Of a stretch of 25,917 nucleotides of DNA, positions 8,220 to 16,748 are shown piece by piece; the stretch's first letter is position 1; every line of letters begins with the position of its first letter. Location of the stretch: IMG/VR virus record IMGVR_UViG_3300006802_000485, positions 1 to 25,917 of that record. One strand, given 5' to 3'. A program made the translations under genes and the position numbers. The stretch is from a virus. The notes under the pieces are model-generated. The model was not told the origin of the DNA. It worked only from the letters and a program-made list of their open reading frames with translations, and made no database searches.

Positions 8220-8225
8220 TAATAA

Positions 8226-8314
8226 TCCAGGATAGCTCAGTTGGTAGTAGCAACGGACTGTTAATCCGTGGGTCGTAGGTTCGAATCCTACCTCCGGTCC
8301 TACCTCCGGAGCCA
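8226..8314 (+). tRNA. tRNA-Asn(GUU), structurally damaged
   Basis: The anticodon arm CGGACTGTTAATCCG with GTT at 8260-8262 and the T-arm GTAGG-TTCGAAT-CCTAC are classic tRNA-Asn, and a CCA is encoded at 8312-8314. Two defects are seen. The 12 bases TCCTACCTCCGG occur twice in tandem (8287-8298 and 8299-8310), so the T-arm is separated from the true 3' acceptor strand CTCCGGA by 12 extra bases. The D-arm also has one extra base (GTAGTAGC for GTAGAGC). With one repeat removed, the 5' strand TCCAGGA pairs at only five of seven positions. It may be a pseudogene. Confidence 0.7.
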
Positions 8315-10556: not shown

Positions 10557-11736
10557 ATATAAAGGTCTGACAGGTTTACTAAACAACCTTACAATTGACG
10601 ACGGACAAACAATGGCACAACTTCGTAGTGCTATTATTAGTGACGAAGGATTGAGCAGTTCTTACTACAGTCGTGTTAGTATTCACAAAAATGGACTTGT
10701 GAAAGACAGCACAGACAATGCAGCAACAACTCTTGCTAGTGCAGGCATTGTTGCTGGCGATATTATTACAGTTTCCAGTGAAAGGTCACAGGCAAACAAA
10801 GAAGCAAATCAACTTATGACACTTGAGATTGTACAACTAAAACGCAAAGCAGGTGGAGATACTACAAAGCCATATTATAGACAGTGGAACACATATGATC
10901 AACTAGCACTGAGTTTGCCTTATGCAGATGGTGCGAGTACACTGGAAGATGATGCAAACACATACAATCCACTATTGCCTCACAGACCATGGGTGACCAG
11001 TGTAGAAGGTGCAGCACCTGCAAGTCCAGAAGAAGCAGTTGGTGAAAGCACATTTCTTGACTTGCAGATTTGGTATGATGGTGCTGATACAAGCACACTT
11101 ATTCCAAGTGCCACAGATGAAGGTCAGATCACACAGTGGACTGATAAATCTGTTCAAGCACACAATGCTAATCCAAATGGCGGCAGTGCTAAACCAAGTT
11201 ACGAAAACACTACACCTCAAAATGGCTATGGTTACTTGGAGTTTGATGGCAATGACAACTTGAGTGTTAACCCATTTACACAACTACAAAGTCAAGCAGG
11301 CTTTACTGTGTTTATGGTTAGTAAACTACTAAACACTACAGGTGTGCAGTATTTGAGTGAAACAAACCAAAATGACCTGCGTATGAACGCTAACGGTACT
11401 ACAATGGAAATTGGCATGAACAGCGCAGTAGGCACAGTTGCTTCTACCGCAGACACAAACTGGGCAAGACACACACTGGTGTTTGATGGCAGTAAAAGCA
11501 CTAACGCAGACAGATTAGTGTATAGAAAAGATGGCGCAGCCAAAACACTGAGTTTTACAGGTACAGTTGCCGCAACCACAAACGCAAGCAACACACATTT
11601 CTATATAGGTAATAACACTGGAAAAACAAGTGGCGCAGAAGTATACATTGCAGAAGTGTTGTTGTTTAATAGAACGCTAAACGCAATCGAGATTACAAAC
11701 GTAGAGTCATATCTAGGCACCAAATGGGGGCTATAG
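10531..11736 (+). CDS. Virion adhesin with C-terminal LamG-like domain
   Basis: About 400 residues. Residues 1-85 (NIAIKYKGLTGLLNNLTIDDGQTM...) look like a ubiquitin-like beta-grasp module, and 85-170 is a linker. Residues 175-401 have the concanavalin/LamG pattern: LQIWYDGADTSTL, ITQWTDKS, GYLEFDGNDNLSV, FTVFMVSK, a WARHTLVFDG strand and the ending YIAEVLLFNRTLNAIEITNVESYLGTKW. Such domains bind carbohydrate on phage fibres. ATG 10531 has GGAG only three bases upstream; GTG 10537 is better spaced and may be the real start. Codons rich in ACA, GCA and AGT are those of an abundant late protein. Confidence 0.75.
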   Translation: MTVANIAIKYKGLTGLLNNLTIDDGQTMAQLRSAIISDEGLSSSYYSRVSIHKNGLVKDSTDNAATTLASAGIVAGDIITVSSERSQANKEANQLMTLEIVQLKRKAGGDTTKPYYRQWNTYDQLALSLPYADGASTLEDDANTYNPLLPHRPWVTSVEGAAPASPEEAVGESTFLDLQIWYDGADTSTLIPSATDEGQITQWTDKSVQAHNANPNGGSAKPSYENTTPQNGYGYLEFDGNDNLSVNPFTQLQSQAGFTVFMVSKLLNTTGVQYLSETNQNDLRMNANGTTMEIGMNSAVGTVASTADTNWARHTLVFDGSKSTNADRLVYRKDGAAKTLSFTGTVAATTNASNTHFYIGNNTGKTSGAEVYIAEVLLFNRTLNAIEITNVESYLGTKWGL

Positions 11737-13180: not shown

Positions 13181-14950
13181 ATGTATTTAGGTATTCTTAC
13201 ATTATTAGTTGCTCTGTGTATCTCAGGTATTGCGGCTTACTATAGCATCATTGGCTTGACTGCTATCTTTGCAGCAGCCTTCTTGCCTATTGTTCTAATG
13301 GGCAGTGTGCTAGAAGTTGGTAAAATTCTAACCACAGTATGGCTACACCAAAACTGGCATCGTGCGCCTAAGATTATACGTGGCTACTTAACCATAGCGG
13401 TCATAGTGCTTATGTTTATTACAAGCATGGGTGTATTTGGTTTCCTAAGTAAAAGTCATATTGAACAGGCTAGTGTAGGGCAAGAGCAAATAGCACTAGC
13501 AGCAAATATTGACGATAAGATGGCTAGGTCAGAAGCCAAAATCAAACGCTGGCAAGAAGACATACAGGCGTTAAACAAGGGCGAAACTGGTGGTCGAATC
13601 GACAGTCTCATTGCCCGAGAGCAACAGCGTATTAAGGATGCTAATGCTAGACTACAGCCGCAGATTGATGCTGAAAATGCAAAGATACCCGGACTACGCA
13701 GTCAAGCACAAACAGAGATTGGACAGCAGGAAAAGCGCCTAGTAGATGCACAGAAACGTGCAGAGGCTAGTATTAAAGTAGCGCAAGACGAACTTACAAG
13801 ACTAGACAATGACGTGAAAGCATACACCAAGCAGGGCACCACTGGAGAAAGTGGTCTGTTTAGTAGCACAACAGACAACGTTGCCAAGGGTGCTGAACTA
13901 AGAGCTAAACAAAAGCCTGAGCGTGATAAACTACAAGCAGATATTGACCGTGCCAAAGCAAATGAGCTTAGTATTGCTAGTGCGGTACAACGAGAAATTC
14001 GTGATATAAACAAGAGACTATCTAACAGTATAAAAGATGTTGAAGCACGTATTGCTACTATTCGTAAGAGCGTTGATCCCACAGTAAAGAGTGCCAATGA
14101 AAATATTACTCGTTATACACTAGAAGCAAGTAATGCTAATAAGGGTGTAGATACACGTATCGCTGATTTAGAAAAACAAATAGAAAACGAACAGCCTGTT
14201 ATAGATCAACTACGTGAAGAGAAGTTTGTATTTGAGAAAAAGTACAGACAGTTTGAAGCAGAAGTAGGCCCAGTAAAATACATCGCAGAACTTATCTATG
14301 GTGCAGCAGATAAGACATTATTAGAGGAAGCAGTGCGTTGGGTGATAATTATAATAGTAGCAGTTTTTGATCCACTTGCTGTATGTCTTGTGCTAGCAGG
14401 CAGTATGACCTTAACCTGGTGGCGTCAAGAAAGAAATAAAAAACCACTAGGCTTTTATGACACAAATTTACAGATAAAAACACAGCCAGACCCAAGAGTA
14501 GAGGAACTTGAAATGGAACTCAAAAAGCATAATGAGATTTTAGACGAGCTAGAAAAATTACTAGACAGCAATTTAAGCAATATTAATCCACTTGAATATC
14601 AAAAATTACAGGATGAACACGCTGCTCTCCTAAGCGAAAAAATAGAACTAGAATCACAACTTGCCACTAGCAAAGAGCAGACCGAGTTGTTGGTAGACAA
14701 GGTAGTAGAAACAGAAGCAGATCGTGACAATTATAAAAAACAAGTAGACGAACTAAGCTCAGGAGTAGAAGGGTTCACAACAAGAATTGAAGAATTACTA
14801 AAGCGTGTTGCAGAACTTGAATCTGAGGTAGAACGCAGAGATGCTGTTGTTATCAAGATGGCAGAAAAATATCAGCTTGTAGAGAAAGACGAGTTTGGTA
14901 ACGATCTAGTTGCAGAAGCAGGTGGTGCGGAAACAACAACAAAAAACTAG
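13181..14950 (+). CDS. Membrane coiled-coil protein, zero-frame product of a -1 frameshift gene
   Basis: A 589-residue protein. Hydrophobic segments lie at about 2-21, 24-42 and 68-90, and again at about 386-412 (VIIIIVAVFDPLAVCLVLAGSM). Residues 95-380 and 430-565 are long charged coiled coils. Such multi-span coiled-coil proteins recur in marine T4-like phages without known function; inner-membrane location is expected. No Shine-Dalgarno is seen and the promoter places the transcript start at the ATG. The zero frame ends ACA AAA AAC TAG: the slippery heptamer A-AAA-AAC sits directly on the stop, so an extended product is expected (see 13181-15264). Confidence 0.75.
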   Translation: MYLGILTLLVALCISGIAAYYSIIGLTAIFAAAFLPIVLMGSVLEVGKILTTVWLHQNWHRAPKIIRGYLTIAVIVLMFITSMGVFGFLSKSHIEQASVGQEQIALAANIDDKMARSEAKIKRWQEDIQALNKGETGGRIDSLIAREQQRIKDANARLQPQIDAENAKIPGLRSQAQTEIGQQEKRLVDAQKRAEASIKVAQDELTRLDNDVKAYTKQGTTGESGLFSSTTDNVAKGAELRAKQKPERDKLQADIDRAKANELSIASAVQREIRDINKRLSNSIKDVEARIATIRKSVDPTVKSANENITRYTLEASNANKGVDTRIADLEKQIENEQPVIDQLREEKFVFEKKYRQFEAEVGPVKYIAELIYGAADKTLLEEAVRWVIIIIVAVFDPLAVCLVLAGSMTLTWWRQERNKKPLGFYDTNLQIKTQPDPRVEELEMELKKHNEILDELEKLLDSNLSNINPLEYQKLQDEHAALLSEKIELESQLATSKEQTELLVDKVVETEADRDNYKKQVDELSSGVEGFTTRIEELLKRVAELESEVERRDAVVIKMAEKYQLVEKDEFGNDLVAEAGGAETTTKN

Positions 14951-15264
14951 CTCAGGTCTCTGTTGATAATATCATCAGGGACCTAGAACTACCACTAGGT
15001 GCCAATATAGATTTTGGTACTAGCTTTGTAGAAGATCCTGAAAAAGGGGATCTTTTTATAAGAGTAGATTTTTTACCTAATAAATTATTTAGGTTTACAG
15101 GTAACAAATGGATAGAAATTCCCAAAACCAGGACCACAAGTTATCTTGGAAATGAACAATACATTCGTCATATGGTTAATAGTATCAAGAGTGGAAAAAT
15201 ATCCCTGGAGCACCTTACAGAAGATGAGCGTGACGAAATTAAAAAGTTTTTATTAAATGACTAA
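13181..15264 (+). CDS. Predicted -1 frameshift product of the membrane coiled-coil gene (694 residues)
   Basis: After the heptamer at 14941-14947, the -1 frame stays open for 105 codons (14947-15261, stop TAA 15262-15264). That frame has no ATG, GTG or TTG between its upstream stop (14899-14901) and the coding start of the domain, so it can hardly be an independent gene. It encodes a real-looking domain: DNIIRDLELPLGANIDFGTSF, GDLFIRVDFLPNKLFRFTGNKWIEI, and a helical end YIRHMVNSI...LEHLTEDERDEIKKFL. The fusion would add a cytoplasmic C-terminal domain to a fraction of the membrane protein. The efficiency is unknown. Confidence 0.75.
14941..14988 (+). promoter_or_regulatory. Programmed -1 ribosomal frameshift site
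   Basis: The slippery heptamer A-AAA-AAC (14941-14947, in phase with the zero frame) is followed by the stop TAG, a 6-base spacer (14948-14953) and a stem of 9 bp: AGGTCTCTG (14954-14962) with CAGGGACCT (about 14976-14984), including one U-G pair. The stem continues after a T-T mismatch with TGAT/ATCA closing an AAT loop. Heptamer, spacer length and stimulatory hairpin all fit the standard model. Confidence 0.85.
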
Positions 15265-15619
15265 ATTTACCCTGGTTACACAGCCAGACTATTATTTTAT
15301 GGACCAGCCAAGTATATTAAGTTTTGGCTATGAATACAACAATCAAAGTGTATGTAATTACATCAAGGATATTAATATTGATATAACTATATACCTAGCA
15401 AACTCAGGCAAGGATATAAACTGGTTGGTAAATGTTTCTAATAATGTAGATTATATATTGTTAAATACTGAAGTAGACAATTTAGTAACAGGATTACTAA
15501 TTGACAAACCTAAAACTTACTATTACAATAATAGTACAGATTTTAATATTATTAATAAACAACAGATCGAGGATCCAGTGGCATTCTTGGTAGGTTGGCT
15601 TGCTAAACTAGAGGACTAA
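15257..15619 (+). CDS. 120-residue hypothetical protein
   Basis: A protein rich in Asn, Asp, Tyr and Ile with alternating strand-like segments (DINIDITIYLANSG, VDYILLNTEVDNLVTGLLI) and a short helix at the end (AFLVGWLAKLED). The Asn and Ile codons reflect AT-rich DNA. ATG 15257 overlaps the last codons of the frameshift extension in a different frame. No Shine-Dalgarno is visible. The next gene begins directly after its stop. I do not recognise the family. Confidence 0.6.
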   Translation: MTKFTLVTQPDYYFMDQPSILSFGYEYNNQSVCNYIKDINIDITIYLANSGKDINWLVNVSNNVDYILLNTEVDNLVTGLLIDKPKTYYYNNSTDFNIINKQQIEDPVAFLVGWLAKLED

Positions 15620-15961: not shown

Positions 15962-16390
15962 ATGGATAATACTCTTACAACTTTTGACATCCCCACACTT
16001 AACAGAAACTTTATTGGCATCGATCGTTTGCTTGATCGTATGCTGGTAAACGGACATACTTCAGAAGGTTACCCACCCTACAATGTGGTTAAACTGGATG
16101 ACGATAACTTTGAAATTGAACTTGCTGTCGCAGGTTTTGGCAAAAAGGATATCGAGGTTACTGTCCATAATGGCGTGCTAACTGTAGAAGGTAGCACAGA
16201 TGCTGGTGAATCTAATCGTGAATATCTACACAAGGGCATCAGCAGTCGCAAGTTTCGTCGTACCTTTAACCTTGCAGATCACGTAGAGGTCAAGGACGCA
16301 ACTGTACAGGATGGTATTCTAAGCATTGTGCTAGAACGCCATGTACCTGAAGAGCTAAAGCCTCGTCAGATCCCTGTTAAATTTGTGTAA
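15962..16390 (+). CDS. Small heat-shock protein (Hsp20/IbpA family)
   Basis: A 142-residue protein with the alpha-crystallin domain at about 38-128: PPYNVVKLDDDNFEIELAVAGFGKKDIEV, GVLTVEG, a YLHKGISSRKFRRTFNL segment as in IbpA, and DGILSIVLER. The C-terminal IPV is an I-x-I/V anchor. These proteins hold unfolding proteins for refolding, and phage copies may protect capsid assembly. AGGAG lies eight bases before ATG 15962 and is probably masked by the leader hairpin. A very stable hairpin follows the stop, then clpS. Confidence 0.93.
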   Translation: MDNTLTTFDIPTLNRNFIGIDRLLDRMLVNGHTSEGYPPYNVVKLDDDNFEIELAVAGFGKKDIEVTVHNGVLTVEGSTDAGESNREYLHKGISSRKFRRTFNLADHVEVKDATVQDGILSIVLERHVPEELKPRQIPVKFV

Positions 16391-16426: not shown

Positions 16427-16442
16427 TAACCCGGAGTTAAAA

Positions 16443-16748
16443 ATGGCAGAGCAAACAGATATTAGAGAAAAGTTTCGTCCTGTTTTGGACCTCGAACCAC
16501 CCAAGGACTATAAGGTCATTTATGTAAATGATCAAGTAACTACATTTGATTTTGTTTGTGACAGTTTAGTAAATGTTTTTGATTACGATGCACCAAAAGC
16601 AGAAAAGAAAACAGCAGAAATTCATGAAAAGGGTGCTGGAATTGTTGCTGTACTACCTTTTGAAATAGCAGAACAAAAGGGCGTTGAAGTCCTTATTCAA
16701 GCTCGTAATCAGGGTTATCCACTAGAAGTAAAATTAGAACAAGAATAA
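16443..16748 (+). CDS. clpS: ClpS-type Clp protease adaptor
   Basis: A 101-residue protein with the ClpS core: PPKDYKVIYVNDQVTTFDFVCDSL, a helix FDYDAPKAEKKTAEIHEKGAG with the conserved His, then VAVLPFEIAEQKGVEVLIQARNQGYPLEVKLE. ClpS docks on the ClpA N-domain and delivers N-degron substrates, while slowing degradation of SsrA-tagged ones. The usual NDD is NDQ here, and the gatekeeper-like PM is TF, so amino-acid preference could differ. ATG 16443 follows GGAG at seven bases; an open frame before it reaches into the hairpin and is not used. Probably co-transcribed with hsp20. Confidence 0.9.
   Translation: MAEQTDIREKFRPVLDLEPPKDYKVIYVNDQVTTFDFVCDSLVNVFDYDAPKAEKKTAEIHEKGAGIVAVLPFEIAEQKGVEVLIQARNQGYPLEVKLEQE

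Follow-up and report, generated by a model that had tools for sequence, protein, structure and literature searches.

The virus fragment analysed here carries an open reading frame for a membrane coiled-coil protein of 589 amino acids (13181–14950, + strand), which ends at a TAG stop codon that the −1 frame passes without interruption. This raises the question of whether some ribosomes change frame at the stop and make a second, longer form of the protein. The fragment, hereafter the window, is the whole 25,917-base stretch of IMG/VR record IMGVR_UViG_3300006802_000485. A sequence-only reading had proposed programmed frameshifting at this point, and the comparisons with relatives given below indicate that the junction is very probably a true programmed −1 ribosomal frameshift site.

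Reading frames and stem at the window junction

The heptamer A_AAA_AAC (14941–14947, +) is in phase and adjoins the 0-frame TAG (14948–14950, +), exactly as the sequence-only reading had it. The open frame contains two in-phase X_XXY_YYZ heptamers in 593 codons, one of which is that touching the stop. In the −1 frame, an upstream stop at 14899–14901 is followed by an open stretch (14902–15264, +) that continues to 15261 and closes with a stop at 15262–15264; the part past the shift, 14947–15261, is 105 codons, which with the 589 would give a long form of 694 aa. The frame was also said to have no usable start of its own and this holds, the first ATG, GTG, or TTG being the ATG at 15172, inside the appended domain. 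A second IMG/VR record of 51 kb (L002), from what is possibly the same sample, has an identical junction; it overlaps the window for 9767 nt with one mismatch, at 10832, about 4 kb from the junction.

A putative stimulatory stem (14954–14984, +) begins after a spacer of 6 nt (14948–14953). Its nine base pairs, one of them G-U, join 14954–14962 (AGGTCTCTG) to 14976–14984 (CAGGGACCT), and past a T-T mismatch there is an upper helix of four more pairs, in which TGAT (14964–14967) pairs with ATCA (14971–14974). The spacer and the extended 9 bp stem had been noted by eye, and folding returns the same structure, with an energy of −20.5 kcal/mol (z −3.6) that is equalled by 1 of 200 dinucleotide shuffles. 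When the codons of the −1 frame are resampled synonymously, none of 500 sequences folds as well (z −4.2), and when the gene's own synonymous codons are permuted 1 of 500 folds as well as the native stem. There is no relevant family for it in Rfam, where the one sub-threshold match is to the other strand.

Two other features of the window were noted. The phage carries a tRNA-Asn with anticodon GUU (8225–8300), which reads AAC, the A-site codon of the slippery heptamer; it could tune the shift, although this is an idea only. The TATAAATA boxes, presumably T4-late-promoter-like, number four in the window against 3.2 expected, and are not therefore in excess over chance.

The junction and the appended domain among relatives

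Loci were gathered by searches with the protein and with alignments, two of which kept the best 80 matches. Among the matches listed there are 94 distinct loci with the appended domain, which is fused in frame to the membrane protein in 58, in an overlapping −1 frame in 23, in a separate ORF in 4, and in an overlapping +1 frame in 1; the remaining 8 have the domain in another gene, with no membrane protein found. In 16 of the 23 loci with an overlapping −1 frame the 0 frame stops at the junction, as it does in the window; these are the distinct junctions, from 19 records.

In all 16 junctions, the window included, the 0-frame stop comes 0, 3, or 12 nt after an in-phase heptamer, which is A_AAA_AAG in 7, A_AAA_AAA in 5, A_AAA_AAT in 2, A_AAA_AAC in the window only, and C_CCA_AAG in one (L045), where the slipperiness is kept and the amino acids are changed. 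In E. coli, A_AAA_AAG and C_CCA_AAG are reported to be highly shift-prone and A_AAA_AAC to be less so than A_AAA_AAG (PMC5009743). To judge by the sequences, the free last base and the CCC swap are the trace of selection for slippage and not for lysines. The 16 genes hold 52 in-phase heptamers in 9589 open-frame codons, 36 of them besides those at the junctions, and in every gene a heptamer begins no more than 19 nt from the stop. An in-phase heptamer is, however, also present in the last 24 nt of 24 of the 128 other relatives (distinct tails, with the two other groups described below included), which makes the heptamer alone weak evidence.

Among the relatives the first pair of the stem lies about 3–7 nt past the heptamer, as judged from folds of each sequence and from arm matching, and the minimum-energy fold gives other pairings in several of the junction sequences. 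Against synonymous-codon controls the stem has a z of −1.5 or lower in 12 of the 16 junctions and is not clearly above the controls in the other four (L005, −0.6; L006, −0.5; L013, +0.3; L045, −0.6). In alignment A4, the 11 pairs of the stem are standard in 80% of cells, falling to 26–55% when the partner is slid by 1 to 3 columns. Two-sided changes are seen at 9 of the 11 pairs, in 19 cells, and none of 500 shuffles is as high on either count; nor does any of 500 reach the covariation score of 0.389 (0.219 when shuffled), whereas the measure of further pair types is matched by 29 of 500. RNAalifold, unaided, recovers five lower pairs of the stem, four of them with two-sided changes. With the 5' arm set beforehand at +6 to +16, the sequences' own arms pair at 160 of 176 positions, compared to a mean of 136.3 for arms permuted among sequences, a result reached in 0 of 20000 permutations. 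The shuffle, permutation, and codon controls all leave some of the shared ancestry among the sequences in place. Counting against the stem is L012, for which the arm search gives 8 of 11 pairs by a pairing unlike that of its near relative L015 (10 of 11).

The sequence following the junction is itself conserved as protein. In an alignment of 10 of the 16 junction members and the fused L014, the −1 frame domain of the nine others has 39–56% identity to that of the window, and L014 has 45%. From the upstream stop of the −1 frame to the domain core there is no ATG, GTG, or TTG in 14 of the 16 junctions, the exceptions being L131, with an ATG 14 codons before the core, and L129, with a GTG 4 codons before it. 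Three of the features looked for in a −1 frameshift site, namely the heptamer, conserved coding without a start in the −1 frame, and a covarying downstream structure, are thus all present.

In a tree of the membrane core, the window's class falls in one clade with a support of 98. This tree was made by a quick method with SH-aLRT support only; 143 of its 150 rows differ, 57 of its 140 inner branches are open, and L136 is unplaced. Two members of the clade differ: L014 is an in-frame fusion, and no domain was detected in L004, which would mean that the two-form arrangement is not indispensable. Within this clade the heptamer (16 of 16), the spacer, and the covarying stem are kept, in agreement with what the sequence-only reading expected of homologues, and the conservation of the heptamer and covariation of the stem indicate that the shift has been maintained there.

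The sequence-only reading had a single junction position, which has to be corrected, since in more distant relatives the domain is in the −1 frame elsewhere. There are two further groups, of 2 and 5 loci, in which it follows runs of 8–9 As at other positions. In L062 (7617) and L113 (7605) an A9 run lies 18 nt before the 0-frame stop, and the −1 frame extensions of 193 and 184 residues, respectively, end in the domain; by eye, SRDQAIERISQKYDLVDK in these extensions resembles ERRDAVVIKMAEKYQLVEK, which precedes the window junction. In L136, L159, L177, L188, and L199 an A8–A9 run lies about 50–220 nt before the stop, and in four of these five, two sequences are preserved across the overlap: the 0-frame tail KLSWKNLTDW..SPIL and, in the −1 frame, a stretch that runs on into EIITEGVT and the domain. 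Both L062/L113 (support 99) and L159/L177/L188/L199 (support 92, with the fused L149 among them) are outside the window's clade. The downstream stem is better than shuffles in L199 only: of 200 mono-nucleotide shuffles, 4 are as good in L199, 50 in L062, 119 in L113, 137 in L159, 171 in L136, and 200 in both L177 and L188. At least one TTG or GTG precedes the core in the −1 frame in six of the seven loci, mostly far upstream (19–83 codons); each of the five loci of the larger group has one, L113 has a GTG, and L062 alone has none. For these groups polymerase slippage is a good explanation, and separate initiation at the internal starts is possible in the six.

A dnaX-like arrangement of inverted polarity, considered for L149, finds no support beyond that single case; the −1 tail of L149 is 4–5 codons, and 41 of 63 fused linkers hold some in-phase heptamer. 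There are also four relatives without a detected domain (L065, L076, L099, and L121) that have −1 extensions of 63–113 codons behind A runs. Only L076 among them has a domain match, a weak one (E 9e-5 with 7 sequences searched), and these may possibly be further shift sites with other C-terminal parts.

What else could place the domain in the −1 frame at the window's junction has to be weighed against these observations. If an indel had arisen by an error in sequencing or assembly, or through the recent decay of a fused gene, then continuous-frame relatives would be expected, and the sequence-only reading had named homologues of this kind as grounds for rejecting a frameshift. They do exist, as the 58 of 94 distinct domain loci listed, although L014 is the only one in the window's clade. 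The indel is nonetheless contradicted by the 19 records: the junction is identical in L002, even if the sample is possibly the same, the split is common to 16 distinct junctions together with heptamer and stem, and the 10 aligned junction members have kept the domain as protein sequence. This explanation is extremely unlikely. Slippage of RNA polymerase, by which an A would be added or dropped in the run and the other frame read by normal translation, is suggested by the A runs at the site in 15 of the 16 junctions, and by the two other groups, which mostly lack a clear downstream stem. Runs of 8–9 As are long enough for polymerase slippage. The run is just 6 As in the window and in L003 and L131, however, L045 has CCCAAAG with no run above 3, and a covarying stem at near-constant spacing fits ribosomes and not polymerase, which leaves transcriptional slippage very unlikely in this clade.

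The domain might instead be the product of a second gene, translated alone by re-initiation from a rare start, with the heptamer reflecting nothing other than lysine-rich tails. Distant relatives do have it in a separate ORF (4 of the 94 listed) or an overlapping +1 ORF (1), and the heptamers near the stop of 24 of 128 other relatives are consistent with this. Initiation at rare starts is also allowed by the sequences, since at least one CTG, ATT, ATC, or ATA codon precedes the core in 14 of the 16 junctions and L131 and L129 have their ATG and GTG. Against it are the 14 junctions with no ATG, GTG, or TTG before the core, the presence of the heptamer in all 16, the free variation of its last base alongside a slippery hexamer that is conserved or swapped for CCCAAA, and the covarying stem just downstream; re-initiation is therefore very unlikely indeed. 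The site, the stem, their conservation, and their covariation are all there to be read in these sequences, and an indel error is no explanation for them. It is the programmed ribosomal frameshift that would account for them together.

The protein is common, and the domain is not always with it. There are at least 591 related stretches of the membrane coiled-coil protein in environmental phage contigs. The phage collection has no near DNA match to the window and no tblastn match to the extension, and seven of its loci (L220–L226) show none of the appended domain, which among nine MAG contigs searched with profiles only (L227–L235) was found in one, fused. Of 58 relatives in which the domain was not detected, 12 close with a motif like W-N/K-x-L/I (for example SVWNKLQDSDNK; L064, L067, L072, L095, L098, L105, L106, and L112 are among them), which is perhaps a short C-terminal signal.

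The membrane protein, its extension and its neighbours

The 589 aa protein has hydrophobic stretches at approximately residues 1–55, 62–92, and 378–412, with a coiled coil, found by inspection, at about 95–365 and a second one after the 378–412 segment. The AlphaFold model, which is poor (pLDDT 66), otherwise has long helices. With four hydrophobic regions, we infer that it is a membrane anchor. The positively charged loop at 46–68 and tail at 408–440 suggest that the C-terminal coil and the extension would be cytoplasmic, and the charge pattern suggests that the first coil is periplasmic, with the C terminus in the cytoplasm. There is no convincing Pfam family for the protein or the extension and no PHROGs family for the protein, and relatives are annotated as hypothetical in all five of the annotated phage records inspected (Pelagibacter phage Mosig, Salicola phage SCTP-2, Flavobacterium phage immuto_3-5A, Xanthomonas phage XacN1, and Microcystis phage Mel-JY01).

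The core of the appended domain (15013–15120, +; FGTSF...GDLFIRVDFLPNKLFRFTGNKWIEI) is predicted to be a beta-module, and the 47 or so residues after it to be mainly helical; the model of the extension (pLDDT 84) has four strands of 4–5 residues and C-terminal helices. A fold search of the PDB with the domain gave no match at E ≤ 0.001. In BFVD there are three matches at this threshold, two to uncharacterised phage proteins and one to a structural protein of phage PA5oct (E 3.5e-4), with fibre and collar proteins at E above 0.005. An Ig fold was considered and rejected, given that the PDB has no match at E ≤ 0.001 and that none of the 50 BFVD matches listed is named as an Ig domain. The domain does match the C-terminal part of phrog_11591 (E 5.6e-7), a virion structural protein of the head and packaging category, which we take to be a T4-like neck protein. 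The structural-type proteins of L028–L044 bear the domain, and of the eight distinct loci with the domain in another gene the one protein run, that of L041, is itself phrog_11591.

Immediately following the extension is a gene of 120 aa (15257–15619, +), the ATG of which overlaps the extension's end. It has relatives in 27 of the 154 distinct loci surveyed for neighbours, many of which are ended by contig edges; these relatives are always downstream of the membrane gene, and 26 of the 27 are within 3 kb. After this uncharacterised ORF the window has syntenic genes for an Hsp20 small heat-shock protein (15962–16390, +) and a ClpS adaptor (16440–16748, +), and then IMPDH/GMP reductase. Hsp20 is present in 104 of the 154 loci and ClpS in 101, always downstream of the membrane gene and within 6 kb (within 3 kb in 74 and 64 loci, respectively), and in the 98 loci with both, Hsp20 comes before ClpS in 97. 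In phage SCTP-2 the order is membrane gene, ClpX, an ORF, and a ClpS-like gene. The membrane gene travels with protein-quality-control genes.

The two proposed forms of the protein and comparison with known systems

On the frameshift reading, ribosomes reaching the end of the membrane coiled-coil ORF would read A_AAA_AAC there and be paused by the stem 6 nt downstream. In some of them the tRNAs would then re-pair one base back (AAA_AAA), and translation would go on past the TAG for 105 more residues. A single mRNA would in this way give a 589 aa form, with the second coiled coil at its end, and a 694 aa form with the small beta-module and helices, probably the minor one. These two forms, with an extra C-terminal domain in the longer, had been predicted from the window by itself, and comparison with the relatives supports them. 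That slippage would occur at a useful frequency, and would set a ratio of the forms, we likewise infer. Mixed oligomers, assembled through the coiled coils, would have the extension on only a fraction of their subunits, and the in-frame fusions would have it on every subunit. The extension may bind a partner, plausibly a virion component, given that a structural protein of phage virions has this domain too.

A broader proposal is considerably more doubtful. It is that this widespread, Hsp20/ClpS-linked phage protein has been selected for two C-terminal forms, which its lineages would obtain through frameshift or slippage sites at different positions: in some the A6-type heptamer lies at the stop, in others an A9 run comes 18 nt or an A8–A9 run about 50–220 nt upstream of it. 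The long form would then tether part of an assembling virion (neck or head) to a platform in the membrane, with the subunits in a fixed ratio. The proposal is made less likely by the starts in six of the seven loci of the other groups, which allow for separate initiation.

If the frameshift is real, C-terminal-domain frameshifting in phages would reach beyond virion proteins and tail chaperones to a membrane coiled-coil protein, which as a target seems to be new. The sequence-only reading knew of no such case, and none was found among the papers listed from the open PMC literature, as covered by titles and the starts of abstracts, with subscription papers and preprints mostly outside it; the wider principle, by contrast, is already known for virion proteins (PMC5009743). 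Loci with a frameshift, an in-frame fusion, a separate gene, or no domain would form a natural comparative series for testing whether the ratio of the forms matters, and reporter tests could draw on the junctions as a small collection of naturally varying heptamers and stems. The junction would also be a first handle on an uncharacterised protein that accompanies Hsp20 and ClpS, and one with an extension that would presumably be missed by gene callers requiring a start codon.

The closest parallel is with the Ig-like and other C-terminal domains that are added by frameshifting to phage head and tail proteins, as in gene 10 of T3/T7, Lactobacillus phage A2, and Listeria phages (PMC5009743). There, as is proposed here, some copies gain a C-terminal domain through a shift late in the ORF; in both cases in-frame versions exist, and the domain is also found on other proteins (PMC5009743). 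It differs in that the target here is a membrane coiled-coil protein and no known head or tail subunit, that the domain is without a significant match to a solved fold, and that two further groups carry it in the −1 frame elsewhere. The idea put forward for such mobile domains, that they land in or out of frame by chance (PMC5009743), is also compatible with fused, shifted, and separate states occurring side by side here.

Tail assembly chaperones account for 2397 of the 2476 frameshift genes annotated in one phage collection (PMC10885494), and a cluster of phage tail assembly chaperones is named in PMC3711429. The lambda gpG/gpGT pair is similar in having a −1 shift near the 3' end that gives short and long forms (PMC5009743), whereas here the protein is a large membrane one and the neighbours include Hsp20, ClpS, and virion structural genes. 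A chaperone of the G/GT type, small, soluble, and encoded before the tape-measure gene, was rejected for the window's protein, which has 589 aa and hydrophobic segments and is followed by other genes; no tape-measure protein was found among the window proteins run, in batches of 10 and 9.

With phrog_11591 the likeness is in the domain, the appended one matching its C-terminal part, although there it sits in a protein read in one frame. In E. coli dnaX frameshifting leads to a truncated form, whereas the shift here would lead to an extended one. The dnaX site is otherwise alike, with a heptamer of the A_AAA_AAG type, which is that of 7 of the 16 junctions, and a downstream stem (PMC5009743). 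The bypassing in T4 gene 60 is likewise a case of recoding that joins two frames (PMC5009743), but by a 50 nt hop in a topoisomerase gene and not by the −1 slip proposed for the membrane coiled-coil protein.
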